Source: Rhizomicrobium sp. (GTDB lineage: Bacteria; Pseudomonadota; Alphaproteobacteria; Micropepsales; Micropepsaceae). Taken from it: 64,000 bases of DNA. Position numbers and translations under genes: made by a program. Of this stretch, positions 868-28,768 are shown in pieces. The notes under the pieces were generated by a model that worked only from the letters and a program-made list of their open reading frames with translations, did no database searches and was not told where the DNA came from. The DNA is taken from assembly GCA_037200045.1 (NCBI GenBank), contig JBBCHM010000001.1:1-64000 (forward strand), given 5' to 3'. How positions within the stretch are numbered: position 1 is the stretch's first letter; each line of letters begins with the position of its first letter.

Positions 868-1326
868 CTATTTGCGCGCGAGGGCTTCGCGAACGGATTC
901 GATCAGCGTCTGGCCATCGAACGGCTTTGCCAGGAACGCGACCGCGCCGGCGGCAAGCGCGCGCCTTCGCGTCGCATCGTCGGGAAACGCGGTCAGGAAA
1001 ATGAACGGCAGATCGTGCCGCTGGTCCAGCAGCCGCGCCTGCAGGTCGACGCCGCTCATGCCCGACATCCGCACATCCGTGATGACGCATTGCGTCGTCT
1101 CGGCTTGCGGCGAGGCCAGGAACTCCTCCGCCGACGAAAACGACGAGACCGAAAAGCCACGCAGGCGCAGCAGCCGCCGCGTTGCGTTCAGGACGGCCGG
1201 GTCGTCGTCGACGATCGAAATTGAGGGCGCGCCGGTCAGGGTGCCATTCCTTCTGCCATGCGCCGAACCGCTCCGACGCCAAACGTCCGCGTTACCTGCG
1301 CCGTCCGACCCTGCCTGGCAATTCAT
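868..1326 (-). CDS. Stand-alone response-regulator receiver protein
   Basis: A single receiver (REC) domain with no output domain. The acidic pair is in SIVDDDP, the phospho-acceptor Asp in CVITDVRMSG (about residue 84 from the first ATG), the conserved Thr in FLTAF and the Lys in FLAKPFD. The receiver begins about 30 residues into the frame opened by the ATG at 1326. The leader has no obvious family resemblance and that ATG lacks a good ribosome site. A CTG at 1239-1237 sits 8 nt after AGAAGGA and just before the first beta strand, and may be the true start (LTGAPSISIVDDD). It follows the FixJ-like gene by 13 bp on the same strand, so it probably belongs to the same two-component operon, as a phosphate sink or diguanylate-free DivK-like relay. 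Confidence 0.8.
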   Translation of the reverse strand: MNCQAGSDGAGNADVWRRSGSAHGRRNGTLTGAPSISIVDDDPAVLNATRRLLRLRGFSVSSFSSAEEFLASPQAETTQCVITDVRMSGMSGVDLQARLLDQRHDLPFIFLTAFPDDATRRRALAAGAVAFLAKPFDGQTLIESVREALARK

Positions 1327-1339
1327 ACAAAGGTTTGGA

Positions 1340-1984
1340 TCACGGCTTGGGGCGGGAAATCCCCAGCGCCTCGGCCATCTTCACCAGATCGGCCAGCGAT
1401 TTGGCGCCCATCTTCTTCATCACGCTGCCGCGATGGATCTTCACCGTGATCTCGCTGAGCCCAAGCTCATGGGCGACCTGCTTGTTCATCAGCCCGGCGG
1501 TGACGAACGCCATGACCTCGCGCTCGCGCGCGGTGAGCGAATCGAACAGCCCGCGCAAGCCCACCAGCTGCTCGTCGTGCTTGCGCCGGACCCGGTCCTT
1601 CTCGATCGCCGCCGCCACGGCGTCCAGCATGTCCTGGTCGCGGAACGGCTTGGAGAGAAAATCGATGGCGCCCGCCTTCATGGCGCGCACCGACATCGGG
1701 ATGTCGCCATGCCCCGTCATGAAGACGATCGGCAGGCGGATATTGAGCTTCGCGAGATCGCCCTGAAGATCGAGGCCGCTGACGCCGGGCAGCCTCACGT
1801 CGAGCACCAGGCAGCCGGGCGCATTGGGCAGCGCGGCCTCCAGAAGCTCCGCGGCCGATCCGAACACTTCGGTCTGAAGGCCGACCGTGCGGAAAAGCCG
1901 TTTCAGGGAGTCGCGAAACGGGCGGTCGTCCTCGACGATGAAGACGACCGGTTCGTCGCTGGCGGCCTCGGTCTGCGTCGTCAC
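1340..1984 (-). CDS. FixJ-family two-component response regulator (REC + LuxR HTH)
   Basis: A 214-residue regulator from a GTG at 1984, which overlaps the stop of the upstream kinase gene (GTGA arrangement, so translational coupling is likely). The N-terminal receiver carries the acidic pair in FIVEDDRP, acceptor Asp62 in LVLDVRLPG, MTGHGD, and Lys in FLSKPF. The C-terminal GerE/LuxR helix-turn-helix covers about residues 145-205 (LTAREREVMAFVTAGLMNKQ, EITVKIHRG). The architecture is that of FixJ/TodT/NodW regulators, which act as transcription activators once phosphorylated by the partner kinase, here the adjacent PAS kinase. A longer frame upstream to 2056 overlaps the kinase and is not conserved-looking. 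The regulated genes are unknown; the neighbouring dps gene is one possibility. Confidence 0.9.
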   Translation of the reverse strand: MTTQTEAASDEPVVFIVEDDRPFRDSLKRLFRTVGLQTEVFGSAAELLEAALPNAPGCLVLDVRLPGVSGLDLQGDLAKLNIRLPIVFMTGHGDIPMSVRAMKAGAIDFLSKPFRDQDMLDAVAAAIEKDRVRRKHDEQLVGLRGLFDSLTAREREVMAFVTAGLMNKQVAHELGLSEITVKIHRGSVMKKMGAKSLADLVKMAEALGISRPKP

Positions 1985-3420
1985 GGATGCGCCCCCCGGT
2001 AAGGCGGCAGGGCGAACTGCAAGGTCGCGCCGCGGCCCGCATTGTTCGTCGCCCACAATCTGCCGCCATGACTTTCGATGATCGTGCGGCAGATGGCCAG
2101 CCCCATCCCCATGCCGTTCGGCTTGGTGGTGAAGAAGGCGTCGAACATCTGCCTGGTGTCCTCGTCCCTGAGCCCGGGCCCGCGGTCGACGATCTCGACG
2201 GCGGCCTCGCCGGACTCGTCCTGCCGCGAGCGGATCACCACCTCGCGGATATCGTCCGCGACGGGGGCCATGGCTTCCATGCCGTTGACGATCAGATTGA
2301 TCAGAACCTGCTGCAGCTCGATGCGGTCTCCCCAGATGGGCCTGAGCCCGGGCGTCGGCTCCAGGCGCAGCGACAGCTGGTATTTCAGCGCCTCGCCCCG
2401 CAGCAGCGGGATGACTTCTTCGATGACCTCGTTGAGGTCGAGCGGGGACTTCTTGGTCCCCTCCTTGCGGGACAGCGCGCGCACGCGCGTGATGATCTCG
2501 CTGGCGCGGCGGCCGCTGGCGATGATGTCACGCGTCGCCTCGCGCAATTCCTCCTTGTCGGGCGGCTCCAGCTCCAGCAGGCGCAGGCACACTTCGCCGT
2601 TGGTGACGATGGCCGCTAGCGGCTGGTTGACCTCGTGCGCGATCGATGTCGTGAACTCTCCCAGCGTCGTCATGCGGGTCACATGGGTCAGCTCCGCCTG
2701 CGCCTTATGGAGGGCTGCCTCGGCGCGCTTGCGATCCTCGATGTCCATCGCCGCGACATAGCGGGCGACGACGTGCCCCTTGTCGTCGCGGACCGGAACG
2801 GTGCGGCTCGCCAGCCAGCGATAGTCGCCGTCGGCGCGCTGCAGGCGCATCTCGGATTCGTAGGCCTCGCCGGTCGCCAGCGATTGCGCGCGCTTCTCCG
2901 CGATCGCGGCACGGTCGTCCGGGTGCACCAGGGCGAGCCAGTCGGCCCGCAGATCCGTCTCGGAGAAGCCCTGGGCCCGCCAGCACGCGTTCATGAAGGC
3001 GACCGCGCCGTCCGGTCCCGTGCGCATCACGAGCGCCGGAATCGTGTCGAGCGTGGCGCGCAGTTCCGCCTCGGCGGCCCGCAGCCCGATTTGCGAAGTT
3101 TGATTGCGATAGGCCAGGAACCCGGTGATCCCGATGGCGGAAAGGCTCATCGCGAGCCGCGCGAACGGCGCGTCCAGCTTCAAGGGGCCGTGCTGCACCA
3201 GATAGCTGACCACGGCGAGCGCCGCGCATCCCGCCGCCACATAGAATGTTCCCTGGCGCGAAATGACGTTCGCGGACAGCAGGATGACGATCACATAAAG
3301 CACGGCCACTGCGACGCCGGAGGGCGTATAGGTGTCCACCGCATATATCGCGATGGCCAGGAGCGCGGCGACTACGGCAAGGCTCCAGGAGCCGGACGGG
3401 GTTTCCAAAGACGATTGCAT
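1981..3420 (-). CDS. Membrane PAS sensor histidine kinase (FixL-like)
   Basis: A 479-residue sensor kinase starting MQSSLETPSG. Four hydrophobic segments (about residues 13-29, 35-53, 59-76 and 88-104) form an N-terminal membrane unit. A PAS domain with a PAC-type end follows (about 115-240; RWLASRTVPVRDD, AAMDIEDRKRAE). The HisKA H-box is at His262 (TSIAHEVNQPLAAI). The ATP-binding domain has the N-box in LINLIVNGMEAM, VDRGPGL, FFTTKPNGMGMGL and a final G-rich ATLQFALP. The EVNQPLAA H-box is typical of FixL/DctB-type kinases. No haem-binding His can be assigned, so oxygen sensing is not claimed. The frame stays open upstream to 3720, but the predicted extension lacks membrane or domain character. 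It is the first gene of the kinase-FixJ-receiver operon and diverges from dps. Confidence 0.9.
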   Translation of the reverse strand: MQSSLETPSGSWSLAVVAALLAIAIYAVDTYTPSGVAVAVLYVIVILLSANVISRQGTFYVAAGCAALAVVSYLVQHGPLKLDAPFARLAMSLSAIGITGFLAYRNQTSQIGLRAAEAELRATLDTIPALVMRTGPDGAVAFMNACWRAQGFSETDLRADWLALVHPDDRAAIAEKRAQSLATGEAYESEMRLQRADGDYRWLASRTVPVRDDKGHVVARYVAAMDIEDRKRAEAALHKAQAELTHVTRMTTLGEFTTSIAHEVNQPLAAIVTNGEVCLRLLELEPPDKEELREATRDIIASGRRASEIITRVRALSRKEGTKKSPLDLNEVIEEVIPLLRGEALKYQLSLRLEPTPGLRPIWGDRIELQQVLINLIVNGMEAMAPVADDIREVVIRSRQDESGEAAVEIVDRGPGLRDEDTRQMFDAFFTTKPNGMGMGLAICRTIIESHGGRLWATNNAGRGATLQFALPPYRGAHP

Positions 3421-3588
3421 CGCCGGCACGGCATCCTCATCCTGGCATCGCGCCACATAATTATATAGGGCCCGGCGGGCAAAAACACCGCTGAGGCGAA
3501 GGCCCGCAGCGTGCGGACCTTGTCGCGCCCGGCAATCGCATCTAGGTATGGGGCCGGCATACCAAGTCGGTAGGCCATCATACGCCGG

Positions 3589-3619
3589 TTCAATCGCGGC
3601 GCCTGCGCCGGTGTATAAT
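3589..3619 (+). promoter_or_regulatory. Candidate dps promoter
   Basis: A perfect TATAAT hexamer at 3614-3619 is followed by about 65 bp of leader before the dps ATG. A weak -35-like TTCAAT lies at 3589-3594, with a spacing of 19, which is long. The -10 match is what supports the call; the -35 match is weak. Confidence 0.3.
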
Positions 3620-3636
3620 CTCGCGGCATCGAGTTG

Positions 3637-3657
3637 GGCTTTCGGTATTCGAAAGCC
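3637..3657 (+). promoter_or_regulatory. Inverted repeat/hairpin in the dps leader
   Basis: GGCTTTCG and CGAAAGCC form a perfect 8-bp inverted repeat around a 5-nt GTATT centre, ending 26 bp before the dps ATG and downstream of the TATAAT element. It could be an operator for a stress regulator or an RNA hairpin in the dps leader. No T-tract follows, so it is not a simple terminator. Confidence 0.4.
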
Positions 3658-3683
3658 GACAGGCGCAACAGGGAAATTGAGAC

Positions 3684-4214
3684 ATGACCGCCACAACGGC
3701 AAAGAACGCGATGTCCGCATCGCTGCGCACGCCCACCGATCTGGGAGCCAACGCCACGAAGGACATCGCGGCGGCGCTGAACCTGCTTCTGGCCGACGCC
3801 TTCGCGCTCTACCTCAAGACCAAGAATTTCCACTGGCACATGTCGGGTCCGCATTTCCGCGACTATCACCTGCTGCTCGACGAGCAGTCGGACCAGATCT
3901 TCGCGACGACCGATCCGATCGCCGAGCGCGTGCGCAAGCTCGGCGGCACGACCTTGCGGTCGATCGGCGAGATCGGCCGCCTGCAGCGGATTCTCGACAA
4001 CGAAGCGGACTACGTCTCGCCGCTCGACATGCTCGCGGAGCTGCGCGACGACAACCGCCAGCTCATCGCCGCCATGCGCGGCGCGCACGCCACATGCGAG
4101 GAGCACGGCGACGTCGCGACCACGAGCCTGCTCGAAGTGTGGATCGACGAAGCCGAACGGCGCGCTTGGTTCCTGTACGAGTCCAGCCGCACGGCCGAGG
4201 CCGCGGGGCGCTGA
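3684..4214 (+). CDS. dps: Dps-family DNA-protecting ferritin
   Basis: A 176-residue four-helix-bundle protein of the Dps family. The signature is clear: KNFHWHMSGPHFRDYHLLL gives the ferroxidase His and nearby Asp, and LLDEQSDQIFATTDPIAERV gives the second set of acidic ligands, both at the dimer interface. Dps dodecamers oxidise and store iron using hydrogen peroxide and bind DNA, protecting it in stationary phase and oxidative stress. The N-terminus (about 25 residues, with Lys and Arg) could serve DNA binding. The ATG at 3684 follows a purine-rich AGGGAAATTGAG. It diverges from the FixL-like kinase operon across a 263-bp gap holding a TATAAT promoter and an inverted repeat, so those regulators may control it. 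Confidence 0.93.
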   Translation: MTATTAKNAMSASLRTPTDLGANATKDIAAALNLLLADAFALYLKTKNFHWHMSGPHFRDYHLLLDEQSDQIFATTDPIAERVRKLGGTTLRSIGEIGRLQRILDNEADYVSPLDMLAELRDDNRQLIAAMRGAHATCEEHGDVATTSLLEVWIDEAERRAWFLYESSRTAEAAGR

Positions 4215-4253: not shown

Positions 4254-5360
4254 ATGCTGGATGCCGCGAGAACACTGCGACCGCGGGGGCTCTCGCGGCG
4301 TATCGGCCGCGCCGTAGTTGGCCTTGCCGCCCTCTGGGGCGCGACGGCGGCGGCGGGCGCGAGCCAGGACGCGCCCCCGCTGTCGGAGATAGCCGAGGCA
4401 TCGCGGGTCGAACTGGGCTCGGCTGGCGTGCTGTATCTCTACACTGCGTATCTGCGAACGCGGGTGCTTCCCAACCGCGATGACGTGGTGTCGGCGCTGG
4501 TCGTGATCCACGGCTATCCGCGCGACGCCAATCGGACACTCGACGCCGGGGCCAGCGCGGCGAGGCGGGCGGGACACGCCTCCGACACCGTGGTGGTCGC
4601 GCCGCTGTTCCAGGTGGCGGCGCCCGCCGACAAACGCTGCCGATATTCCGGCAATCCCGCGGCGCAGCTGGGCGACGTCTTGTGGAGCTGCGCGTCCTGG
4701 CTCGATGGCGGCCTGGCCACGGGCGGCGGGACGACCTCGTTCCAGGCGCTGGACAAGGTCGTCGCGGGTCTGCGGGAACGCTGGCCCCGCTTGCGGACGA
4801 TCACCGTGGCGGGCTTTTCCGCCGGCGCGCAATTCGTCCAGCGCTATGTCGGCTTCGCGCGGCCGCCGGCGGGCGTGCATTTGCGCTACGTGGTTTCCGA
4901 TCCCGGGACGTGGCTCTATTTCGACCAGCACCGGCCGGCGCCCCAGGGCGGATGGACGGACTGCGATAGTGCCTCCTGCCGCTTCGCATGGCGCTTGGTG
5001 GGCGCGTCGGCCGACTGCCCCCGGCCCAACCAATGGAAGTACGGAACCGATGGGCTTCCCGCCGTTCTCGGATCCTCGGCCCGCGAGGCCCGGGCGCGCT
5101 ACGCCGCCGCCGACCTGGCCTATCTCGAGGGCGAGTTGGACCAGGGCGACGGTCCCGGCACCTATTACGGGCTGCTCGACAAATCCTGCGCCGCCGAGCT
5201 GCAGGGACCCGATCGTCTGCGCCGCGGGCTCGCCTATGCCGCCTATGACGGGCGCTTCCTCTCCGCCGGTCGTCCGCTGACCATCGTCGGGGGATGCGCG
5301 CACGACGTCACTTGCGTGTTCCCATCGAAGGACGCGCGCCGGGCTTTGTTTCCCCGATAG
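4254..5360 (+). CDS. Secreted alpha/beta-hydrolase-like protein
   Basis: A 368-residue protein with an N-terminal signal sequence (basic RPRGLSRRIGRA, then hydrophobic VVGLAALWGATAAAGA, cut near residue 36). Alpha/beta-hydrolase features follow: VVIHGYPRD, resembling the oxyanion-hole strand, then TVAGFSAGAQFVQRY, a nucleophile elbow G-F-S-A-G around residue 183. A late IVGGCAHDVTC may supply the His. Several cysteines (CRYSG, WSCAS, DCDSASC, ADC, KSC, GGC, DVTC) suggest disulfides in the periplasm. The substrate is not evident. It starts 39 bp after dps, behind a GGCGGAGGACGG ribosome-site-like stretch. Two-thirds of the protein has no family I can name; similar proteins are annotated only as alpha/beta hydrolase. 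Confidence 0.75.
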   Translation: MLDAARTLRPRGLSRRIGRAVVGLAALWGATAAAGASQDAPPLSEIAEASRVELGSAGVLYLYTAYLRTRVLPNRDDVVSALVVIHGYPRDANRTLDAGASAARRAGHASDTVVVAPLFQVAAPADKRCRYSGNPAAQLGDVLWSCASWLDGGLATGGGTTSFQALDKVVAGLRERWPRLRTITVAGFSAGAQFVQRYVGFARPPAGVHLRYVVSDPGTWLYFDQHRPAPQGGWTDCDSASCRFAWRLVGASADCPRPNQWKYGTDGLPAVLGSSAREARARYAAADLAYLEGELDQGDGPGTYYGLLDKSCAAELQGPDRLRRGLAYAAYDGRFLSAGRPLTIVGGCAHDVTCVFPSKDARRALFPR

Positions 5361-5572
5361 GGCGAACGGTGCCGGTCGCCGTCGAGGGGCGCGGCGCCGC
5401 ATTCGGTCCGGCGCAACGGGACACCGGCCTGGCGACCTAAACCAAGGTATCCCCCGGGCAAACCCAAAGGGGGGCCGCGCAGCCGCAAGTGCAATCGAAA
5501 GGCGGAGCGCCGCGTCTCATTCTCCTAGGCGTCACTTGTGTCCCCCAAGATCGCAAACCCAGGAGCCAGACC

Positions 5573-6340
5573 ATGACGAAATCCAAAACCCGCTTGGCCA
5601 TCGCCGCCGCCGCCCTCCTCGCCACCGCCGCGATTCCCGCGAGCGCCTCCCCGGTCAAGAACATCGTGCTGGTCCATGGCGCTTGGGTGGACGCGTCGGG
5701 CTGGAAGGCCGTCTACGACATCCTCACCAGACAGGGCTTCCACGTCGCCATGGTGCAGGAGCCCGAGACCTCGTTCGCCGACGACGTCACGGCGGCGCGC
5801 CGTGTCATCGACCAGCAGGACGGCCCCACGCTTCTCGTCGGGCACAGCTATGGCGGCTCGATCATCACCGAGGCCGGCGCCGACGCCAAAATCGTCGGCC
5901 TGGTCTATGTCGCCGCCCACGCGCCGAATGTCGGCGAAGACGAATCCGCCCTCGGAGCGAAGATGCCCAGCGTCCTCGCCAAGACGCCCGGCGCGGTCAA
6001 GAAGTCGGCGGACGGCTACACCTATCTCGACCAGGACACCTTCCTGAAGCATTTCGCGCCCGACCTGCCGCCGGCCGAGGCGAGGTTCATGGCCCGCTCG
6101 GAGGTCTTCGCCCAGGCCAGCGTCTTCGCGACCCCGCTCACCGCCGCCGCCTGGACCACCAAGCCGAGCTGGGGAATCGTCGCCGGCGGCGACCAGATCA
6201 TCAACCCCGATCTGGAGCGCTGGTACTACACGCGCGCCAAGAGCCGGACGATCGAGATCAAGGGCGCCAGCCACTGCGTGTTCGCCTCCCATCCCGCCGA
6301 AGTCGCGGCGGTGATCGCGAAAGCCGCCCGTAGTTTCTAA
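5573..6340 (+). CDS. Exported alpha/beta hydrolase (HGAW/GHSYGG type)
   Basis: A 255-residue esterase-like alpha/beta hydrolase. Residues 1-27 are a signal peptide (MTKSKTRLAIAAAALLATAA then IPASASP). Mature features are LVHGAWVDASGW (oxyanion strand), LLVGHSYGGS (nucleophile Ser near residue 90), GGDQIIN (acid) and GASHCVFASHP (His). The order matches the EstC/MhpC-like family often annotated as alpha/beta hydrolase, and the substrate is unknown. The ATG at 5573 was chosen over an upstream in-frame start at 5489 because the signal peptide begins there and CAGGAG precedes it by a few bases. It has a clear paralogue at 28874-29614. mdcA starts 36 bp downstream, so it may be cotranscribed with the malonate operon. 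Confidence 0.85.
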   Translation: MTKSKTRLAIAAAALLATAAIPASASPVKNIVLVHGAWVDASGWKAVYDILTRQGFHVAMVQEPETSFADDVTAARRVIDQQDGPTLLVGHSYGGSIITEAGADAKIVGLVYVAAHAPNVGEDESALGAKMPSVLAKTPGAVKKSADGYTYLDQDTFLKHFAPDLPPAEARFMARSEVFAQASVFATPLTAAAWTTKPSWGIVAGGDQIINPDLERWYYTRAKSRTIEIKGASHCVFASHPAEVAAVIAKAARSF

Positions 6341-6376
6341 TCTCAAGCCGCCGGCATCGATTCGGGAGCAAACACG

Positions 6377-8023
6377 ATGACCAATTGGCAACACGGCCGC
6401 GAGGCGCGCCGGGCCCGCGTCGAAGCCGGCGCGAGGCTGGCGAAGGGCAAGATTATCGAAGCGCGCGACGCCACGGCTCTGCTCGAAGCCGTCCTGCGGC
6501 CGGGCGACCGGGTTTGCCTGGAAGGCGACAACCAGAAACAGGCGGACACGCTGTGCGCCGCGCTGCTGGCCGTCGATCTCGCCAAGGTGCGCGACCTGCA
6601 CATGGTGCAGTCCGGCGTCGTGCTGCCGGAGCATCTCGATTTGTTCGAGAAGGGCGTCGCCAGGAAGCTCGACTTCGCCTATTCCGGCCCGCAATCGGCG
6701 CGCATCGCGACCATGTTGTTCGGCGGCAAGATCGATCTCGGCGCCGTGCACACCTATCTCGAACTGTTCGCCCGCTACTTCATCGACCTGACGCCCAATG
6801 TCGCGCTGATCGCCGCGGTCAGCGCCGACCGCGACGGCAATCTCTACACCGGCCCGAACACCGAGGACACGCCGACCATCGTGGAGGCCACCGCCTTCAA
6901 GGACGGCGTCGTCATCGCCCAGGTGAACGAGATCGTCGACAAGGTGCCGCGCGTCGACATCCCGGCCGACCGGGTGCATTTCGTCGTCAAGGCCGACAAG
7001 CCGTTCTTCGTCGAGCCGCTGTTCACGCGCGATCCCGCCGCGATCACCGAAAGCCAGATCCTGACCGCGATGCTGGCGATCAAGGGCATCTACGCGCCCT
7101 ATGGCGTCAAGCGGCTGAACCACGGCATCGGCTTCGACACCGCGGCGATCGAGCTTCTGCTGCCGACCTATGGCGAGAAGCTGGGCCTGAAGGGCAAGGT
7201 GGCGACGCGCTTCGCGCTCAATCCCCATCCCGCGCTGATCCCGGCGATCGAATCGGGCTGGGTCGAGCAGATCCATTCCTTCGGCTCGGAAGTCGGGATG
7301 GAGAACTACGTCCGCGCCCGGCCGGACATCTATTTCACCGGCCCGGACGGTTCGCTGCGCTCCAACCGCGCCTTCAGCCAGACGGCGGGCCTCTATGCCT
7401 GCGACATGTTCATCGGCTCGACCCTGCAGATCGACCTTCAAGGCAATTCCTCGACCGTCACGACCTCGCGCGTCTCCGGCTTCGGCGGCGCGCCGAACAT
7501 GGGCGCGGATGCGCGCGGGCGGCGCCATCCGAGCGAACCCTGGCTGCTGGCCGGCAAGGAGGCCGATCCCGACGGCGCGCCGCTCTTGCGCCGTGGCCGC
7601 AAGCTGGTCGTGCAGATCGGCGAGACCTTCGGCGACAAGAACGTGCCGCTGTTCGTCGAGAAGCTCGATGCCCTCGAACTGGCGCGGAAGCTCAAGCTCG
7701 ATCTCGCGCCGGTGATGATCTATGGCGACGACGTCACCCACATCGTCACCGAAGAAGGCATCGCCAATCTGCTGCTTTGCCGAAACGCGGAGGAGCGCGA
7801 ACAGGCGATCCGGGGCGTCGCCGGCTACACCGCTATCGGCCGGGCCCGCGACGCGAAGATGGTGCAGCGCCTGCGCGAGCGGCGCGCGATCCTGCGGCCC
7901 GAGGACCTTGGCGTCGATCCGCTCGATGCCGACCGCGGCATGCTGGCGGCGCGTTCGATCAAGGATCTGGTCCACTGGTCCGGCGGGCTCTATGCGCCGC
8001 CCTCGCAATTCCGCAACTGGTGA
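6377..8023 (+). CDS. mdcA: Malonate decarboxylase alpha subunit (malonate:ACP transferase)
   Basis: A 548-residue MdcA. In the biotin-independent malonate decarboxylase this subunit transfers the acyl carrier thiol between acetyl and malonyl groups (acetyl-S-ACP:malonate transferase). It belongs to the CoA-transferase superfamily, and family-like blocks include MTNWQHGREARRAR at the start, GDNQKQAD, MVQSGVVLPEHLDLFEKG, NTEDTPTIVEATAFKDGVV, FALNPHPALIPAIESGW, GFGGAPNMGADARGRRH and VTEEGIANLLLCR. The length is normal for MdcA (about 550). It starts the run mdcA-C-D-E-G-B-F-H, all on the plus strand with gaps of 14 bp or less or with overlaps, and the order agrees with known mdc clusters. Confidence 0.96.
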   Translation: MTNWQHGREARRARVEAGARLAKGKIIEARDATALLEAVLRPGDRVCLEGDNQKQADTLCAALLAVDLAKVRDLHMVQSGVVLPEHLDLFEKGVARKLDFAYSGPQSARIATMLFGGKIDLGAVHTYLELFARYFIDLTPNVALIAAVSADRDGNLYTGPNTEDTPTIVEATAFKDGVVIAQVNEIVDKVPRVDIPADRVHFVVKADKPFFVEPLFTRDPAAITESQILTAMLAIKGIYAPYGVKRLNHGIGFDTAAIELLLPTYGEKLGLKGKVATRFALNPHPALIPAIESGWVEQIHSFGSEVGMENYVRARPDIYFTGPDGSLRSNRAFSQTAGLYACDMFIGSTLQIDLQGNSSTVTTSRVSGFGGAPNMGADARGRRHPSEPWLLAGKEADPDGAPLLRRGRKLVVQIGETFGDKNVPLFVEKLDALELARKLKLDLAPVMIYGDDVTHIVTEEGIANLLLCRNAEEREQAIRGVAGYTAIGRARDAKMVQRLRERRAILRPEDLGVDPLDADRGMLAARSIKDLVHWSGGLYAPPSQFRNW

Positions 8024-8037
8024 GAGGGAGAATCCAG

Positions 8038-8355
8038 ATGGAAGATCTCAGCATGCGCCACACCGGTTGCCGCCCGGCCGGCGGCACCCAGAAAATGGCG
8101 ATCATCGGCGTGGTGGCCTCTGGCAATCTCGAAGTGCTCGCCGAACGCGTGCTGCCGCAGACCGAATGCGTCGTCGAGATCAAGACGGCGGCCGAAGGCT
8201 TCGGCGCGGTGTGGAACGCCGTGGTCGCCGATTTCGTGGAGCGCTATTCGCCGGGCGGGCTGAAGCTTTCCATCAACGACGGCGGCGCGCGTCCGGACAC
8301 GGTAATGCTGCGCCTGGCCCAGGCGGTTCGTTTGATATCGGAGGACGGACAATGA
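8038..8355 (+). CDS. mdcC: Malonate decarboxylase acyl carrier protein (delta subunit)
   Basis: A 105-residue acyl carrier protein of malonate decarboxylase, which carries the 2'-(5''-phosphoribosyl)-3'-dephospho-CoA group. The attachment serine is most likely Ser28 in GVVASGNLEVL, by analogy with the GSGDLEVL segment of characterised MdcC proteins. The C-terminal half (VWNAVVADFVERY, LSINDGGARPDTVMLRLAQA) is family-typical. The ATG at 8038 follows GAGAGGGAGA and lies 14 bp after the mdcA stop. Its own stop overlaps the mdcD start (ATGA), which points to translational coupling of carrier and carboxylase subunits. Confidence 0.95.
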   Translation: MEDLSMRHTGCRPAGGTQKMAIIGVVASGNLEVLAERVLPQTECVVEIKTAAEGFGAVWNAVVADFVERYSPGGLKLSINDGGARPDTVMLRLAQAVRLISEDGQ

Positions 8356-9257
8356 GCGCGGCGACGACGAGCTGGTACGAGGCCTCGGCGCGCAAGCGCG
8401 TCCAGTTGCTCCTCGATGCGGACAGTTTCGAGGAATTCATCGGGCCGGAACAGCGTGAGGTCAGCCCGCATCTGAAAGTGTTCGATCTTCCCGAGGAATT
8501 CGACGACGGCATCGTCGTCGGGCGCGGCACGCTCGCCGGATCGCCGGTGTTCGTCGCGGCGCAGGAAGGCCGCTTCATGGGCGGCGCCTTCGGCGAGGTC
8601 CATGGCGCCAAGCTGACCGGCCTGTTGCGCGCCGCGCGCGAGATCAAATCGATCCCCGTCCTGATCCTGTTCGACACCGGCGGTGTGCGCCTGCAGGAGG
8701 CCAATGCCGGCGAACTCGCCATCGCCGAGATCATGCGCGCGGTGATCGAGGCGCGGCTCGCGGGCGTCAAGGTGGTCGGGCTGATCGGCGGCCGCGCCGG
8801 CTGCTATGGCGGCGGCGGATTGATCGCGGCCTGCTGTTCGGCGCTCGCCGTGTCCGAGCAGGGCCGCATCGCCGTCTCCGGTCCCGAGGTCATCGAGACC
8901 AATCGCGGCGTCGAGGAGTTCGACTCGCGCGACCGCGCCCTGGTCTGGCGCACCATGGGCGGCAAGCATCGCCGGCTGCTCGGCGGCGCCGATGCCTTCG
9001 CCGACGACACGGTGCAGAGCTTCCGCGATGCCGCGCTGGCGCTGCTCGGCCTGGCCGGCGGCTTCGGCCTCGACACGCTGCGCGCCGAACAGGCGCGCCT
9101 CGAAGATCGCTTGCAGCGTTTCGGCGCCTGCGCCGATGCGCTCGACATCTGGACGGCGGAAGGCATCGCCGATGCCGCCGCGATCCCGGGCATGCAAGCG
9201 GCGCAATTCATCTCAATCGCCGACACAGTGCGGAGGACCGGCCGTGACGCTCGATGA
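8352..9257 (+). CDS. mdcD: Malonate decarboxylase beta subunit
   Basis: A 301-residue carboxyltransferase-fold subunit. Together with MdcE it decarboxylates malonyl-S-ACP to acetyl-S-ACP and CO2. The crotonase/carboxyltransferase pattern is visible: QEGRFMGGAFGEVHGAKL, ILFDTGGVRLQEANAGELA, LIGGRAGCYGGGGLIAACC, and VSGPEVIETNRGVEEFDSRD. The glycine-rich GGRAGCYGGGG turn is the expected oxyanion-type element. The ATG at 8352 overlaps the mdcC stop, and the 3' end overlaps the mdcE GTG at 9244 by 14 bp. Confidence 0.95.
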   Translation: MSAATTSWYEASARKRVQLLLDADSFEEFIGPEQREVSPHLKVFDLPEEFDDGIVVGRGTLAGSPVFVAAQEGRFMGGAFGEVHGAKLTGLLRAAREIKSIPVLILFDTGGVRLQEANAGELAIAEIMRAVIEARLAGVKVVGLIGGRAGCYGGGGLIAACCSALAVSEQGRIAVSGPEVIETNRGVEEFDSRDRALVWRTMGGKHRRLLGGADAFADDTVQSFRDAALALLGLAGGFGLDTLRAEQARLEDRLQRFGACADALDIWTAEGIADAAAIPGMQAAQFISIADTVRRTGRDAR

Positions 9258-9960
9258 CATTCTCGCCTCGCTGTTTCCCGGCGGCCACGACATCAAGAAG
9301 GATGGCGGCCTTGTGTTCGGCACCGGCGTGCTCAAATCCGGCGGCCGGGCCCTGGTGATCGGCGTCGCCGACCGCACGCCGCTCGGCGTGGACGACGCCA
9401 TCCGCCTGTCCCGATATGTGCTCGACTCGGCCGCCGCCGGCCCGATTCTCGTCGTGGTCGACAGCGACAGCCAGCGCATGAGCAAGCGCGACGAGCTTCT
9501 CGGCCTCAACGAATTCCTTTCCCATCTCGCCAAGTCGCTCATCCTCGCGGACATCCAGGGCCGGCCGACCATCGGCATTCTGTACGGCCACACGGCAGCC
9601 GGCGCGTTCCTGGCGACCGCGATGGCGACGCGCGTGCTGGTGGGATTGCCGGGCGCCACCCCGGCGGTGATGGACCTGCCGTCGATGTCCAAGGTGACGA
9701 AGCTGTCGATCGAAGTCCTGGAGGCGAAGGCCAAGTCCACGCCGGTGTTCGCGCCGGGCCTGCGGAATCTCGCCCAGACCGGAGCGGTGCATCTGACATG
9801 GGACGTCACTGTCCCGCTGGCCGGCCAATTGGATGCGCTGCTGTCGAACATGCCCGACGCGCGCGACCGCCGCGGCGAGCTCGGCAAGCAGCGCGGCGGC
9901 CGGTTGAAGGCCCATGACATCGCGGAGCGCGTGCGTGAACTCGCCCTTCAAGCCCGTTGA
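9244..9960 (+). CDS. mdcE: Malonate decarboxylase gamma subunit
   Basis: A 238-residue partner of MdcD, from a GTG at 9244 behind a GGAGG ribosome site inside the mdcD end. Carboxyltransferase-like features are LVVVDSDSQRMSKRDELLGL, GILYGHTAAGAFLATAMA, and GLPGATPAVMDLPSMSKVT. In characterised systems MdcD and MdcE form the decarboxylase heterodimer. The C-terminus (RGGRLKAHDIAERVRELA) is typical of the gamma subunit. The gene overlaps both neighbours, and the mdcG GTG at 9935 lies before its stop. Confidence 0.94.
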   Translation: MTLDDILASLFPGGHDIKKDGGLVFGTGVLKSGGRALVIGVADRTPLGVDDAIRLSRYVLDSAAAGPILVVVDSDSQRMSKRDELLGLNEFLSHLAKSLILADIQGRPTIGILYGHTAAGAFLATAMATRVLVGLPGATPAVMDLPSMSKVTKLSIEVLEAKAKSTPVFAPGLRNLAQTGAVHLTWDVTVPLAGQLDALLSNMPDARDRRGELGKQRGGRLKAHDIAERVRELALQAR

Positions 9961-10615
9961 CCGGCCGATGCGGCGGCACGACCTGGTCTATCTCCGCCTG
10001 GCCGCCTGGCAGGCGCTGCTGGCGACGCGGCCCGACCTGGCCGCGGATCCGCTTGTTGCGTCCTGGGTCGGCAAGGGCTGGCCGCTGATCGGACGGCGCG
10101 CCGTGCAAGGCGAGAAGCCCGGCATTCCCCTGGGCCTGCCCTTGCCGCCCTTCGCCGGCAAGCGCCGGCTGTCCTTCGTCGCCGAGCCCGAACACATCGT
10201 CTCGGTCGCGCCGCCGCCGACCTTGAGCGCCGTCAGCCGGGCTGCGCCGCGCGCCTGGTGGCCCGCGCTCTACGATCTCGACGAACTTGCCGCCGACCAC
10301 GGCGTGGACGCGCGCGTGTTCGGCAGCCTGGCCTGGCAGGCGCTCACCGGCCTGGACTATCTGACCTCCCGCTCCGACCTCGACCTTCTGCTGCACGTCC
10401 ATCGCGACACCGATCTTGCCCGCCTCACCGCCGGCATCACGCGCATCGAGGAAACCGCGCCCATGCGGGTCGACGGCGAGTTGATCCGCGACGACGGCAC
10501 CGCCGTGAACTGGCGCGAGATCCAGGCGGGTGCGCGCGAGATCCTGGTCAAGTCCGAAGGCGGCGTCGCCCTCGTCGAATCGAACCTGTTTCTTGGCGGG
10601 GGCATGCCGTCGTGA
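9935..10615 (+). CDS. mdcG: Holo-ACP synthase of malonate decarboxylase (phosphoribosyl-dephospho-CoA transferase)
   Basis: A 226-residue nucleotidyltransferase-like enzyme that attaches the triphosphoribosyl-dephospho-CoA-derived prosthetic group to apo-MdcC. Family pattern: MRRHDLVYL near the N-terminus, DARVFGSLAWQALTGLDYL, then SRSDLDLLLHV, the acidic motif of the nucleotidyltransferase fold, and GELIRDDGTAVNWRE. The GTG at 9935 is preceded by GGAG with 7-nt spacing; an ATG at 9968 (MRRHDL) is an alternative start, without a comparable ribosome site. It overlaps the mdcE end and the mdcB GTG. Confidence 0.92.
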   Translation: MNSPFKPVDRPMRRHDLVYLRLAAWQALLATRPDLAADPLVASWVGKGWPLIGRRAVQGEKPGIPLGLPLPPFAGKRRLSFVAEPEHIVSVAPPPTLSAVSRAAPRAWWPALYDLDELAADHGVDARVFGSLAWQALTGLDYLTSRSDLDLLLHVHRDTDLARLTAGITRIEETAPMRVDGELIRDDGTAVNWREIQAGAREILVKSEGGVALVESNLFLGGGMPS

Positions 10616-11490
10616 CGACCGCTCTTGCACGCGGCACGCCGCGCGCGCGGCCTTCGGACACACCACGCATCTTCGAAGCCATCGCGGCGAGCGCCGTCGA
10701 TTGCCTCCTGCTGGAGCTAGAAACCTGGCCGAAGCCCGGCCTGGTGAGTCATATCGATTCCGGCAGCCATGCCGACATGGACGCCGATACGTTCCGCCGC
10801 AGCGCTGCGGCTATCGCGCCATATTTCCGCGCCCTGGCCGAGGCCGGCGCCGATTGCGAAACAATGGGGCGTCTACGGATCATCGGTCTGCAAGCCGAAG
10901 CCGCGATGTTCACCGCGACCTCGGGGATCAACACGCACCGCGGCGCCATTTTCGGTCTGGGACTGCTTTGCGCCGCCGCCGGTGCCAAGGCCGCCGGGCG
11001 CATCGATCCCGCATCGTCGCTGGGCGACGCCGTCGCGCGGCTTTGGAGTGACGGTATCCTGGGCGGCCCCGTCCTGCTTCACAGCCATGGCAGCGGCGCG
11101 CGCCGCCGCTTCGGCGCCGGCGGCGCCCGGCTGGAGGCGGCCTTGGGATTTCCCACCGTATATAAAGTGGGCGTGCCCGCCCTGCGCCGGGGCGCCCGCA
11201 ACGCGCCCGACGATTGCGAGGCCGCCCGCGTCGAAGCCTGCTTCGCGCTCATCGCGGTCCTGGAAGACACCAACCTGTTGCATCGCGGCGGTGCGTCCGG
11301 CCTTCGCTTTGCCCGCCGCGCGGCGCGGAGGTTTCTCGAAGAGGGCGGAGTCGGCCGGCCCGATTGGCGGGCGCGCGCCCGAGCGGTCCATGATAGTTTC
11401 GTCGCCCTGAGGCTCAGCCCGGGCGGCGCCGCCGATCTGCTGGCTATGTCCCTCTTCGTCCATGCAAATGAAAAGTCCTTGCCGCGATGA
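10612..11490 (+). CDS. mdcB: Triphosphoribosyl-dephospho-CoA synthase
   Basis: A 292-residue CitG/MdcB-family enzyme, which condenses ATP and dephospho-CoA into the precursor of the MdcC prosthetic group. Family blocks: LELETWPKPGLVSHIDSGSH, DMDADTFRRSAAAIAPYF, GINTHRGAIFGLGLL, GFPTVYKVGVPAL and LEDTNLLHRGG. The GTG start at 10612 overlaps the mdcG stop as GTGA. Having both MdcB and MdcG here means the operon encodes all steps of cofactor synthesis and loading. The 3' end overlaps the transporter ATG by 4 bp. Confidence 0.93.
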   Translation: MTTALARGTPRARPSDTPRIFEAIAASAVDCLLLELETWPKPGLVSHIDSGSHADMDADTFRRSAAAIAPYFRALAEAGADCETMGRLRIIGLQAEAAMFTATSGINTHRGAIFGLGLLCAAAGAKAAGRIDPASSLGDAVARLWSDGILGGPVLLHSHGSGARRRFGAGGARLEAALGFPTVYKVGVPALRRGARNAPDDCEAARVEACFALIAVLEDTNLLHRGGASGLRFARRAARRFLEEGGVGRPDWRARARAVHDSFVALRLSPGGAADLLAMSLFVHANEKSLPR

Positions 11491-12434
11491 CCGGCGCGAT
11501 CCTGCTGGCATTGGCGCCGGTCTTTTTCGTGCTGCTGCTCGGCTACGGCGCCGGGCGCTATCGCGTCGTCGAGAACCATCACGTCGAAGGTCTCAATGCG
11601 CTCGTCATGAGCTTCGCCTTGCCGGCGTCGCTGTTCGTCGCGACGGCCTGCGCCCCGCGCCGCGAGATGCTCGAACAGGCGCCGCTCTTCGTCATTTTCG
11701 GCGGCATGATGCTGGCGGTGTTCGCCGCCTGGTATGCCTATGCGCGGGTCTATGCGAGCGCCTCCAAGGCGGATGCGTCGCTCCAGGCGCTGACCATCGC
11801 CTTTCCGAACCTCGCCGGCGTCGGCCTGCCGATCGCGGCGTCGGTGGTCGGACCGGGCGGCACGGTCCCGCTGGCGGTGGCGCTGGCCGCCGGCTCCATC
11901 ATCATCAGCCCGCTCTCGCTGATCGTGGTCGAGATGAGCACCGGCAAGCCGGACGCCGCGGTCTCGCCGGCCAAGCGAATTTTCGGCGCGCTGCGGCGCG
12001 CGGTGACCAAGCCCATCGTGCTGGCGCCGGCGCTCGGCATCCTGTTCTCCCTGGCCGGCCTGAAGCTGGACCCCGTCGTGAAAGCGTGCCTCGTGCTGAT
12101 CGGCCAAGCCGCGCCCGGCGTGGCGCTGTTCCTGACCGGCATCGTCCTGTCGTCGCAGCCGTTCCGGCTCGACTGGAACGTGGTCGGTGCCACGGGCCTC
12201 GCCAACATCGTGCGGCCGCTGCTGACGGCCGCCATCGTGTTCGCGCTCCCGGTGCCCATGGACGTCGCCAAGATCGCCATCCTGCTGGCCGCCGTGCCGT
12301 CGGGATTCTTCGGCATCCTGTTCGCCGTGAACTACCGCCTGGATTCCGCGCGGGCCGGATCGATGGTGACCGCCAGCACGATATTCAGCATCGTGACGAT
12401 GGCGGTCGCGATCGGCGTGCTATACCCACGCTAA
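11487..12434 (+). CDS. mdcF: AEC-family malonate transporter
   Basis: A 315-residue integral membrane protein with about ten hydrophobic segments, of the auxin efflux carrier (AEC) family. Recognisable stretches are LAPVFFVLLLGYGAGR, NALVMSFALPASLF, FPNLAGVGLPIA and LLAAVPSGFFGILFAVNY. AEC proteins inside mdc clusters are named MdcF and are assigned to malonate uptake. Context (between mdcB and mdcH, with a 4-bp overlap at its start) gives the substrate; the sequence alone does not. No MdcL/MdcM pair is present in the window. Confidence 0.88.
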   Translation: MTGAILLALAPVFFVLLLGYGAGRYRVVENHHVEGLNALVMSFALPASLFVATACAPRREMLEQAPLFVIFGGMMLAVFAAWYAYARVYASASKADASLQALTIAFPNLAGVGLPIAASVVGPGGTVPLAVALAAGSIIISPLSLIVVEMSTGKPDAAVSPAKRIFGALRRAVTKPIVLAPALGILFSLAGLKLDPVVKACLVLIGQAAPGVALFLTGIVLSSQPFRLDWNVVGATGLANIVRPLLTAAIVFALPVPMDVAKIAILLAAVPSGFFGILFAVNYRLDSARAGSMVTASTIFSIVTMAVAIGVLYPR

Positions 12435-12444
12435 AGGCGGCGCC

Positions 12445-13383
12445 ATGACGCTTGCGATCCTGTGTTCCGGACAAGGCCGGCAGCATCTCGGCATGTTCGC
12501 CCTGACCGGCGATGCGCCCGAGGCGGCCGGCCTCTTCGCGCGCGCGGCGGCGCTGCTCGGCGGCCGCGATCCGCGCGAGCTGGTCCGCACCGGCAGTCCC
12601 GACAGCCTGCATCACGATCGCATCGGTCAAATCCTCTGCACCGTTCAGGCGCTCGCGGCGATGGCGGCGCTGCGCGGCGCGATGCCGGACCGCCGCGTCG
12701 TCGCCGGCTACAGCGTCGGCGAGATGGCGGCCTGGGGCGTCGCGGGCCTCTTGGACCCCATCGACACGCTGGACCTCGTCGCGCGCCGCGCCGAAGCGAT
12801 GGACGCGCATTCCCTGCCGGGAGACGGGATGTTGTTCGTGCGCGGCCTCTCCCGCGCCGCTGTCGACGATCTTTGCGTCCGGCACGGCGCGGCCGTCGCC
12901 ATCATCAATCCGGGCGATGCATTCGTCATCGGCGGAAGCCGCGCCGCGCTGGACGGCCTCGCCGCCGAGGCGAAGGCGGCGAAAGCCGCGCGTGTCGTCG
13001 ATATCGCGGTGGAGGTCGCATCCCACACCAAGCGCCTTGCCGCCGCCTCCGCCGAATTCCGCGAGATTTTGAGTCATGTTCCCGTAAAGCCCGCGCCGTT
13101 CGGCACGCGGCTGCTGAGCGGCATCGACGCCTCGTCGGTTCTCGACACGAAGACCGGTCTCGACAAGCTGGCGGCCCAGATCTCGCAAACCGTGCAATGG
13201 GCCGATTGCCTGGAGGGCTGCATCGAGGCCGGTGCGACGGCGTTCCTGGAACTCGGCCCGGGCCCGGCGCTGCGCGGCATGGCGGCCGAGGCCTATCGCG
13301 ACGTTCCGGCGCGCAGCCTGGAGGATTTCAAGACGCTGCCGGGCGCCCGCGTCTGGCTGGCGTCGCTCACACGGAGCCGGTGA
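12445..13383 (+). CDS. mdcH: Malonyl-CoA:ACP malonyltransferase of malonate decarboxylase
   Basis: A 312-residue FabD-like acyltransferase that charges MdcC with malonyl from malonyl-CoA to start the decarboxylase cycle. LCSGQGRQHLGMF is the FabD-like first loop, and the nucleophile is Ser90 in VAGYSVGEMAAWG. Tyr replaces the His of the usual GHSxGE motif of FabD. NPGDAFVIGG and EVASHTKRL (catalytic His) follow. It lies 10 bp after mdcF and ends the operon. Its last 17 bp overlap the convergent deacetylase gene. Confidence 0.93.
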   Translation: MTLAILCSGQGRQHLGMFALTGDAPEAAGLFARAAALLGGRDPRELVRTGSPDSLHHDRIGQILCTVQALAAMAALRGAMPDRRVVAGYSVGEMAAWGVAGLLDPIDTLDLVARRAEAMDAHSLPGDGMLFVRGLSRAAVDDLCVRHGAAVAIINPGDAFVIGGSRAALDGLAAEAKAAKAARVVDIAVEVASHTKRLAAASAEFREILSHVPVKPAPFGTRLLSGIDASSVLDTKTGLDKLAAQISQTVQWADCLEGCIEAGATAFLELGPGPALRGMAAEAYRDVPARSLEDFKTLPGARVWLASLTRSR

Positions 13384-14176: not shown

Positions 14177-15097
14177 CTAGCGAGCCTTCGTTCTGGTGCG
14201 CTCGCCGAGCAGCCGGTCGAATTCCCTCTTCGACACGCCATAGCATTCGCAGGACAGCCGCTCCAGGCCGCGACGGTCGAGGATCGTGACGGTCCCGCGG
14301 CTGTAACGGATGAGGCCGGCGCGTTGCAGCGCGCCCGCCGCCGCCGTCACGCCGGTCCGCTGCACGCCCAGCATCATCGCGAGGAATTCCTGCGTGAGCA
14401 GGAACTCGTCGGTGTGCATGCGGTCATGCGTCATCAGCAGCCAGCGGCTGCAGCGCTGCTGCAGGGAATGGAAGTGATTGCACGCCGCCGACTGCGCGAC
14501 CTGGTTGAAGAAGGCATGCGCGTAGCGCAGCATCACGGCGCGCAGCGAGGCGCTGCGCGCCATCTCCTCTCCGAACAACGCCGCCTTCATGCGCAAGCCG
14601 GAACCGGGAACCTGGACATAGACACTGGTCGGTGCCCGGTCGTCGCCCAGGAGCAGCGGCAGGCCCACGATGCCCTCATTGCCGATGGTTCCGACCTCGG
14701 CGGCATCGCCGTTCTTCATGGTGTTCACAAGCGAACCGACGCCGCTCTCGACGAAATAGACATAGTCCAGCGGCTTGTTCGCCCGGTAGAGCGATTGGCG
14801 GTACGCCAGCGCAACCGGCTGCAAATGCGGGCGAAGCCTGGCGCGGTCACGCGGCGGCAAGAGGGCGAGCAGGCGGTTGACAGCAGTCTGCGTGGCGCCG
14901 AGCGGGCGCGTATTGCTTTTGCTCGAACCGAGCTTTGACAGCGGCTTTTCCTCGTCTATCGCGAAATATGGGTGCCGGCGCGCCGTTCGCGCGTCCTTGG
15001 GCAAAACGCTGCGCCTTCGCAGCCGCAGTAGCAAGGACAATGTCCGATAGCCGACATTTTGCCGGGAACCGTCGTCTCGGCTGTATCTTACCGTCAT
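14177..15097 (-). CDS. Crp/Fnr-family transcriptional regulator
   Basis: A cyclic-nucleotide-binding-like domain (LLALLPPRDRARLRPHLQP, FVESGVGSLVNTMKNGDAAE, GTIGNEGIVGLPLLLG) precedes a C-terminal winged helix (LTQEFLAMMLGVQRTGVTAA, GLIRYSRGTVTILDRRGLER). The conserved part starts about 14,890, so the 306-residue frame given here carries a long unconserved N-terminus. The frame is open still further, to a TTG/ATG at 15157/15154, and a start closer to the domain is possible. I see no N-terminal cysteine cluster of the FNR iron-sulfur type; CECYGVS near the C-terminus is a family feature of this Crp-like subgroup. It is probably cotranscribed with the deacetylase. Confidence 0.85.
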   Translation of the reverse strand: MTVRYSRDDGSRQNVGYRTLSLLLRLRRRSVLPKDARTARRHPYFAIDEEKPLSKLGSSKSNTRPLGATQTAVNRLLALLPPRDRARLRPHLQPVALAYRQSLYRANKPLDYVYFVESGVGSLVNTMKNGDAAEVGTIGNEGIVGLPLLLGDDRAPTSVYVQVPGSGLRMKAALFGEEMARSASLRAVMLRYAHAFFNQVAQSAACNHFHSLQQRCSRWLLMTHDRMHTDEFLLTQEFLAMMLGVQRTGVTAAAGALQRAGLIRYSRGTVTILDRRGLERLSCECYGVSKREFDRLLGERTRTKAR

Positions 15098-15243
15098 GCC
15101 GCCGTGGTACGCGTAACCATCGCCGCGGTCTGACCGTCGGCGGCTGAGAGACATCAAGGGCCGCGAATGCGACGGCCCGCGCTCCCGACGCGACGGAGAG
15201 CCGATGCAGGCCTTCGATCACGTCACGCAATAGTTCCCCGCGC

Positions 15244-27853: not shown

Positions 27854-28768
27854 ATGTCGAGTGGCGTCACTGTGGACGATGTCCGGCGGGAGCTTAAGGA
27901 CAGACCTCTTTTGGCATCGAATCGCGGTCTCCCTTGGATGGGCGTCGCGGTGGACGAGTTTGACGGCTATTTTGCGAATGACGTTCTGGCGCCGCCGCGC
28001 GACCACAACGCCATAACCATAAATCTCGGCGTGTCGCCATTGATCATCCAGCACCGCTGCGGGCGCAGCTTTCGTAGCCCGTCGCAAATCGGCGAGGCTT
28101 CCATCATACCGGCCGGCCATGAATCCCGCTGGCAAGGACGCGTGCCCGCCAACATATGTTTGCGATTCGCTCCGGAGATTTTGCGCCAAGCGGGTTACGA
28201 CGCGCGCGCGACCGGCGAACCGAGGGTGAGGATGGCGAACGGCTTTCGCCTTCGCGACCCCATGCTGGCGCACTATGGCACGCTTTTCCGCCACGAGCTG
28301 ACGAGGCCGGCGCATCCGACTCAAATTCTCTTGATCGAAAGCCTGACGACGACGCTGTTGATGCACCTGCTGCGCGGCTACACCGATGCGGTGGGCGTCG
28401 ACGACCGGTGGACGACGTCGTCGCACAGCGCGGCCATTCGGCGCGTGCTTCGCTATATCGACGACCAGCCCAACTCTCGCATCGCTCTTGAGGAACTCGC
28501 CGATGTTGCGGGGGTGAGCCGCTTCCATTTCTGCCGCGTCTTCAAACGCGAATTGGGCATGACCCCGGCGAGCTATGTCGAGCGCGCGCGAATCGAACGG
28601 GCCAAGACTTTGATTCGCAGCGGCCAGTGGTCCCTGGCCGAAGTGGCGCATGAAATCGGATTCTCCGACCAGAGCCATTTCACACGCCGTTTCCAGAGTC
28701 ACGAACGGTGCACCCCGGCTGCGTATGCGCGCGAATACGGACGGCGGTCGCCATCCCGGCGCAATTAA
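27854..28768 (+). CDS. AraC-family transcriptional regulator
   Basis: A 304-residue activator. The C-terminal AraC domain (about residues 200-297) has both helix-turn-helix units: IALEELADVAGVSRFHFCRV then FKRELGMTPASYVERARIER, and LAEVAHEIGFSDQSHFTRRF. The N-terminal 180 residues are a sensor domain with a short beta-rich region (GRSFRSPSQIGEASIIPAGH) of the type seen in small-molecule-responsive AraC proteins. The ATG follows GGGATCGGG. Base composition is lower in GC than the flanking operons, in keeping with a position just inside a possible island. The likely target is the hydrolase gene 105 bp downstream. Confidence 0.9.
   Translation: MSSGVTVDDVRRELKDRPLLASNRGLPWMGVAVDEFDGYFANDVLAPPRDHNAITINLGVSPLIIQHRCGRSFRSPSQIGEASIIPAGHESRWQGRVPANICLRFAPEILRQAGYDARATGEPRVRMANGFRLRDPMLAHYGTLFRHELTRPAHPTQILLIESLTTTLLMHLLRGYTDAVGVDDRWTTSSHSAAIRRVLRYIDDQPNSRIALEELADVAGVSRFHFCRVFKRELGMTPASYVERARIERAKTLIRSGQWSLAEVAHEIGFSDQSHFTRRFQSHERCTPAAYAREYGRRSPSRRN

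Follow-up and report, generated by a model that had tools for sequence, protein, structure and literature searches.

A malonate decarboxylase operon headed by a predicted exported alpha/beta hydrolase in Rhizomicrobium sp.: a possible esterase-first type

Gene clusters for malonate decarboxylase (mdc) have been described in several bacteria, and the one considered here lies in a stretch of 64,000 nucleotides from Rhizomicrobium sp. (contig JBBCHM010000001.1, positions 1 to 64,000; hereafter the window), which opens contig C1 of a three-contig genome of 4.73 Mb. In Acinetobacter calcoaceticus, the same pathway comes with a repressor, MdcY, which we take to belong to the GntR family. The mdcABCDEGHLM set of Pseudomonas putida and Pseudomonas aeruginosa has the same catalytic core as the window, whose mdcA is a clear relative of the MdcA of PDB entry 5vit. 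According to PMC5534430, the Pseudomonas transporter is MdcLM, whereas the window has MdcF, and the mdcABCDEFGHR cluster of Klebsiella pneumoniae shares with the window the enzyme, cofactor and activation genes as well as MdcF. The order in Klebsiella is A-B-C-D-E-F-G-H with mdcR, while that of the window is A-C-D-E-G-B-F-H, with no mdcR beside it and with an added leading gene coding for an alpha/beta hydrolase, here called HYD. On the basis of its sequence, we give a probability of about 0.5 to the reading that this malonate-utilisation operon is of a distinct "esterase-first" type, in which HYD would free malonate from esters.

The array HYD-mdcA-C-D-E-G-B-F-H runs along the plus strand at positions 5573-13383 with all frames intact; the gene calls agree with the initial annotation as to the order, strand and coordinates of the mdc genes, and as to the AEC transporter gene mdcF (PF03547) within a complete mdc operon. 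Neighbouring genes overlap at four of the eight junctions, and the remaining junctions measure 7 to 36 bp (HYD-A 36, A-C 14, C-D -4, D-E -14, E-G 7, G-B -4, B-F -4, F-H 10). An array of this kind is not due to chance. Family assignments rely on the bit score relative to the NCBIfam curated cut-off, or on Pfam (Table 1), and the decarboxylase subunits MdcA, MdcC, MdcD, and MdcE as well as the cofactor proteins MdcB and MdcG all score above their curated cut-offs. MdcC contains the sequence VASGNLEVL with Ser28, the modified serine of the Pseudomonas MdcC being Ser25 in PMC5534430. Judging from these matches, the locus is almost certainly a biotin-independent malonate decarboxylase operon, whose decarboxylase part is of an ordinary, known kind.

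The linkage between HYD and mdc was followed in 83 mdc loci, namely those of the window and of genomes G028 and G395, and 80 named loci which, having been chosen as the best matches to the window mdcA among 580 relatives, bias the sample towards window-like mdcA. Locus genes were called by a codon-based script and then clustered; GntR and LysR here stand for genes related to the mdc-linked ones at any place in the locus stretch, usually 10 kb on each side of mdcA, and the G028 entries (row L088) for FixJ, the winged-helix protein and HYD were set by hand from separate comparisons. HYD is found co-oriented just upstream of mdcA in 20 of the 83 loci. None of these 20 contains GntR, LysR or MdcLM and 16 contain MdcF, whereas GntR is present in 29, LysR in 18, either regulator in 47, MdcLM in 32, and MdcF in 5 of the 63 loci without HYD. 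Fisher tests, which ignore shared descent, give p values of 9e-10 for HYD against GntR/LysR and of 1e-9 for HYD with MdcF. In addition, a repeat search, also covering locus L089, reproduced the regulator and MdcLM counts and returned no match to E 1e-5 for MdcY-like GntR, MdcR-like LysR, MdcL or MdcM in any of the 20 HYD loci. The named HYD-mdc loci come from Bradyrhizobium (10), "Rhizobiales bacterium" (3), and Hyphomicrobium, Variovorax, Luteibacter and Paraburkholderia (1 each); Bradyrhizobium displays both architectures, with and without HYD, in different mdcA clades. Of the 17 named HYD loci, 16 have a gap of 6-238 bp between HYD and mdcA. In L011 the gap is 961 bp and contains a gene for an MBL-fold hydrolase (9138-10004), which shares 4 bp with mdcA; a relative of this gene adjoins HYD-like genes in L076 and L078. 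In L016 and in L215 (G395), whose MdcA proteins are identical, mdcF is matched in two separate pieces, suggesting a frameshift.

The trees extend this picture. On an mdcA tree built with a quick method, 18 HYD loci fall into one 97% clade of 20 rows, and the remaining two, from Luteibacter (L024) and Paraburkholderia hiiakae (L034), group with Dyella and Robbsia. The mdcA of Mesorhizobium helmanticense (L078), which belongs to a fourth branch, is preceded by a C-terminal remnant of HYD (59% identity across 56 residues), and a shorter, broken HYD match was seen in L076. The HYD tree (59 rows) took 18 of the 20 linked HYDs, L018 and L026 being left out; these 18, together with one unlinked sequence (L196/G311), form a clade with support of 100/99, and 40 other homologues fall outside it. 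So does a paralogue encoded in the window itself (28874-29614), 50% identical to HYD and unlinked to mdc, which has an AraC-type regulator gene (27854-28768) on one side and the gene of a hybrid PAS histidine kinase (30180-32369) on the other. As read from these trees, HYD is present on at least three mdcA lineages. Since the clade of linked HYDs spans several mdcA branches, the same HYD subfamily either met mdc repeatedly or moved between mdc operons, and either course points to function. In the light of the clade, of the several mdcA lineages and of the conserved placement, HYD is probably a functional partner of mdc rather than a passenger, so that the predicted exported hydrolase initially annotated 36 bp before mdcA does appear to belong with the operon.

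In the genus, the operon is rare. A search for mdcA in 61 genomes (its own, 36 other genus members and 24 of the same class) detected it in two, the window genome and G028, whose MdcA proteins are 93% identical, and these are the only two of the 37 genus members with the mdc operon. From HYD (78-80% identical) through to mdcH, the genes of G028 stand in the same order, and upstream G028 also keeps the receiver, FixJ, FixL and Dps genes and the gene at 4254, with about 7 kb extra between the latter and HYD. In panels of 385 class genomes, the mdcA and HYD panels being assumed to be the same draw, full-length mdcA was found in 7 and weak partial matches only in 5 more; a close HYD (>55%) was present in 3, of which 2 have mdcA (Fisher p 0.0008, or 0.03 without the window genome). 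One class genome, G182, has two full-length mdcA copies on separate contigs (C191 and C238). Among 34 neighbourhoods of HYD-like genes, surveyed for the query genes only, one is mdc-linked (L215), and no partner among the queried genes recurs in most of them: a FixJ-like match occurs in 3 of the 34 (L213, L221, L224), a FixL-like match without FixJ in two others (L222, L226), a winged-helix ATPase in three (L200, L206, L219), and a LysR-like match in three (L203, L212, L219).

At the protein level, HYD matches Pfam Abhydrolase_6 (E 3.2e-25), and its AlphaFold2 model, obtained with a 20-row alignment, has a mean pLDDT of 89.7. The best Foldseek matches of this model are 8hfw, HNL, SABP2, and PytH. 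With VIA-align 2, superposition on 8hfw gives a Z of 27.4 and an rmsd of 2.1 over 224 aligned residues, and superposition on PytH, SABP2, HNL, and PNAE gives Z of about 25-26 and rmsd of 2.2-2.7 over about 220-228 residues. The likeness covers residues 24-255, at a Z of about 24-26 and an identity of about 16-22% to the SABP2/MES/HNL/PytH relatives. The triad Ser92, Asp207, His234 is present in all 18 aligned mdc-linked HYDs and nearly always in the other homologues, so that HYD has both the fold and the Ser-His-Asp triad of the SABP2, plant methylesterase, HNL and PytH alpha/beta hydrolases. Besides the low identity, HYD differs from the SABP2 group in its signal-like N-terminus and in His116, which in a profile alignment faces a Phe of SABP2 that we take to be a pocket-lining residue. 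His116, Glu124, and Gly128 are found in 18 of 18 linked HYDs and each in fewer than a quarter of the 40 other homologues, in which position 116 is F, L, R, Y, W or V where not His; a polar group at this position could interact with the carboxylate that is left free in a half-ester. The N-terminus of the window HYD combines basic residues, a run of hydrophobic ones and an AxA site, and a signal-like segment with AxA opens all 17 linked HYDs whose N-termini are complete, making export to the periplasm likely on inspection of the sequences. To the model of BioH, a cytoplasmic enzyme, HYD has a weak match (TIGR01738, 27 bits), the cut-off of 206.95 being far higher.

Close relatives of HYD precede the same gene set elsewhere, which is why HYD may free malonate from larger molecules. 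In the proposed scheme, HYD would cut, in the periplasm, an ester having malonate as its acid part, candidate substrates being malonyl half-esters such as 6-O-malonyl glucosides, or monomethyl malonate. The freed malonate would be imported by MdcF and loaded by MdcA onto the MdcC carrier, whose cofactor would come from MdcB and MdcG and whose first charging would be due to MdcH, after which MdcD-MdcE would decarboxylate it to acetyl-ACP and CO2, the roles of the Mdc proteins being those described in PMC5534430. That HYD is a malonyl-ester hydrolase has somewhat less than even odds. More tentatively still, the mdc-linked clade may consist of dedicated periplasmic malonyl-ester esterases which take malonate off malonylated plant glycosides, or off other malonyl half-esters, recognise the free carboxylate through His116 and Glu124, and joined the malonate operons of three or more lineages where MdcLM plus MdcR/MdcY would be the usual set.

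Several observations weigh against the esterase-first reading. The fold does not give the substrate, since its family also includes hydroxynitrile lyases and pyrethroid or methyl-ester esterases. Within the main mdcA clade, L008 and L009 lack an upstream HYD, and conversely G311 has a member of the HYD subfamily but no mdcA match, its HYD adjoining, by eye, a MarR-like gene. The named loci were selected for their likeness to the window mdcA, and tree-corrected pair tests, with only 4-5 independent pairs, reach no significance, for which reason a tree-corrected association of HYD with regulator loss was dropped. Finally, a gap of 87-238 bp in 13 of the 17 named loci leaves room for separate promoters, and the sigma-70 scan described below yielded no promoter before HYD either.

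Against this background, HYD might instead be an exported esterase of general use, acting on methyl-salicylate-like or pyrethroid-like esters from plants or xenobiotics, co-expressed with mdc since both serve life near roots, and making no malonate. SABP2, PytH, and HNL among the closest solved folds, the efflux-pump-like genes which by eye flank several Bradyrhizobium HYD-mdc loci, and the window paralogue without mdc linkage would all suit such an enzyme; we nevertheless hold it to be doubtful, although the strongest of the rivals, for homologues are many and yet the mdc-linked HYDs form one clade, on several mdcA lineages, with a residue signature of their own. The same linkage data would fit a periplasmic hydrolase directed at a by-product instead of a nutrient, namely malonyl esters with a toxic or blocking effect, or a lactone; it would protect the cell while mdc clears malonate. 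Malonate inhibits succinate dehydrogenase, and its clearance would therefore be valuable by itself; this protective role is the least probable of the explanations considered. Hardly more probable is a purely historical linkage, in which HYD came to stand before mdcA a single time, in an ancestor among the Alphaproteobacteria, and was then passed on with it by horizontal transfer, with no functional tie. The single mdcA clade holding 18 of the 20 HYD loci, and the mere two genus genomes out of 37 with mdcA, in the same block order, are what such a history would leave, but the HYDs of Luteibacter and P. hiiakae, the remnant before a fourth type of mdcA and the intact triad of all 18 aligned linked HYDs speak against it.

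The initial annotation also connected HYD with plant-glycoside genes of the window. These genes are real and begin about 21 kb downstream of mdc, but the connection is not borne out by G028, which keeps the operon while its genes past mdcH differ. As for the availability of bound malonate, malonylated forms are the major soybean isoflavones and malonic acid is reported to reach a very high concentration in soybeans (PMC5433297 and PMC4861915, respectively). The mdc genes of Bradyrhizobium are mentioned without a leading hydrolase in passages of PMC11973431 and in one section of PMC4861915. Among open-access titles and abstract beginnings on the theme, none describes a bacterial enzyme that frees bound malonate for use or a hydrolase gene leading an mdc operon, an earlier mention of the latter being possible in the regulation study of Suvorova 2012. 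The novelty is modest and resides in the esterase-first type, the repeated HYD linkage and the missing MdcR/MdcY. Were the esterase-first reading true, a malonyl-ester esterase fixed to the malonate operon in strains of Bradyrhizobium would offer a direct route to bound malonate and a named enzyme family, and would set apart those mdc operons whose regulator is other than a recognisable MdcR or MdcY.

Concerning transcription, the non-coding block at 5417-5509 aligns with G028 free of gaps at an identity of 88%, in comparison with 80-92% for the coding genes of the block and 73% over the alignable part of the FixL-Dps spacer. Since this stretch is conserved like genes while the HYD-mdcA spacer differs (36 bp in the window, 108 bp in G028), a control region before HYD is suggested. 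A scan of positions 5200-6500 gave no match for a sigma-70-like or plus-strand terminator-like site. In view of the 36-bp gap and of the lack of such matches within it, HYD and mdc probably form one transcript in the window, started in 5417-5509. The 17-mer ACCTAAACCAAGGTATC of this upstream block has a single copy in the genome and one other site at 3 mismatches; a genome-wide regulon based on it was given up, there being no second good copy. An Rfam scan of the block returned nothing at threshold, and a riboswitch was likewise rejected, the only match being c-di-GMP-I-GGC (11.5 bits for a threshold of 59) and the fold being no better than that of shuffled sequences.

The operon appears to be regulated without a recognisable MdcR or MdcY. 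The initial annotation had reported no local regulator, which holds for the MdcR and MdcY types, as neither an MdcY-like GntR nor an MdcR-like LysR was found within the 64-kb window, but calls for a reservation as regards the two-component system 1.9-4.7 kb upstream of HYD. The proposed search for an unlinked mdcR found no orthologue in the genome. With a profile of 12 mdc-linked GntRs, the best genomic GntR reaches 62.6 bits, and no MdcY orthologue was found. A profile of 8 mdc-linked LysRs picks out one genomic outlier, C2:1212392 (193.8 bits, the next best having 79), which is 28-38% identical to the 16 LysRs standing next to mdc, resembles LrhA most closely (158 bits, short of the cut-off) and is, by eye, surrounded by what looks like a sulfonate transporter and monooxygenase set. 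Being LrhA-like and among sulfonate-type genes, it was rejected as an unlinked MdcR, although a role shared with mdc is possible.

The upstream FixL/FixJ set comprises a PAS-HisKA-HATPase kinase, with PAS_3 and PAS_4, and a receiver-GerE regulator, as recognised by Pfam. FixJ-like genes (>=45%) lie near mdc at full length in 5 of the 20 HYD loci, window and G028 included, and clipped at the locus end in four more (L017, L018, L020, L026); they also occur in 3 of the 63 loci without HYD, none of these 3 having GntR or LysR. The closest counterpart of the window FixJ is 87% identical in G028 versus 51-54% in the 5 other genus members passing E 1e-55. On the FixJ tree, the mdc-linked members, their linkage being judged by matching coordinates, are scattered instead of forming one clade, and elsewhere in the Bradyrhizobium genomes that were searched there are several FixJ copies of about the same similarity. 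The FixL/FixJ system was therefore set aside as a conserved mdc regulator and is kept as a weak candidate, its control of mdc being unlikely. A CadC-like winged-helix ATPase lies near mdc in 5 of the 83 loci, G028 included, and gave no match in the window, which begins 5.6 kb before HYD; it is seen in L089 (1688-4453, 5930-6649), L010, L008, and L014, with a small partner gene in 3 of these 4.

Table 1. Features of the HYD-mdc locus in the window, with the basis of each assignment
Feature	Position	Strand	Basis
HYD, predicted exported alpha/beta hydrolase, 255 aa, Ser92-Asp207-His234	5573..6340	+	Abhydrolase_6, fold, triad
mdcA, acetyl-ACP:malonate ACP transferase	6377..8023	+	TIGR01110, 904.5 bits (cut-off 789.2); PDB 5vit MdcA, E 4.6e-215
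mdcC, acyl carrier protein	8038..8355	+	TIGR03130, 97.4 bits (cut-off 84.1); PF06857
mdcD, decarboxylase beta subunit	8352..9257	+	TIGR03133, 368.2 bits (cut-off 278.2)
mdcE, decarboxylase gamma subunit, GTG start	9244..9960	+	TIGR03134, 238.5 bits (cut-off 237.2); PF06833
mdcG, holo-ACP synthase	9968..10615	+	TIGR03135, 225.6 bits (cut-off 99.7)
mdcB, triphosphoribosyl-dephospho-CoA synthase, GTG start	10612..11490	+	TIGR03132, 313.6 bits (cut-off 282.4)
mdcF, AEC-type carrier, presumed malonate transporter	11487..12434	+	PF03547, 123.2 bits (Pfam cut-off 25.7); NCBIfam auxin-efflux model, 116.6 bits, under its cut-off of 246.05; mdcF relative in 16/20 HYD loci
mdcH, malonyl-CoA:ACP transacylase	12445..13383	+	TIGR03131 as best match, 281.8 bits, short of the cut-off (297.9); consistent position and acyltransferase domain
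Upstream non-coding block, likely promoter/operator, with ACCT-N6-AGGT	5417..5509	+	conservation with G028
Candidate regulator set: PAS histidine kinase (1981-3720), FixJ-type regulator (1340-2056), receiver (868-1326)	868..3720	-	Pfam domains

Around the operon, the protein of 368 aa encoded at 4254-5360, between Dps and HYD, has no Pfam match at E <=10 and is 68% identical in G028. On the other side, a polysaccharide-deacetylase-like gene has 17 bp in common with the end of mdcH and is followed by a gene for a Crp-type regulator (14177-15157). Further downstream, the plant-glycoside genes at 34600-60939 code for X-Pro peptidase-like and Abhydrolase_3 hydrolases, GH3, a DeoR regulator, an FGGY-type kinase, an FMN-dependent dehydrogenase, a RhaT symporter, a carboxylesterase, a TonB receptor, a GH106 alpha-L-rhamnosidase, a tannase/feruloyl esterase and an AMP-binding enzyme. 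They are followed, at 61073-63825, by an acyl-CoA dehydrogenase and then a carboxyl transferase, a pair which, as a guess, might serve branched-chain acyl-CoA breakdown.

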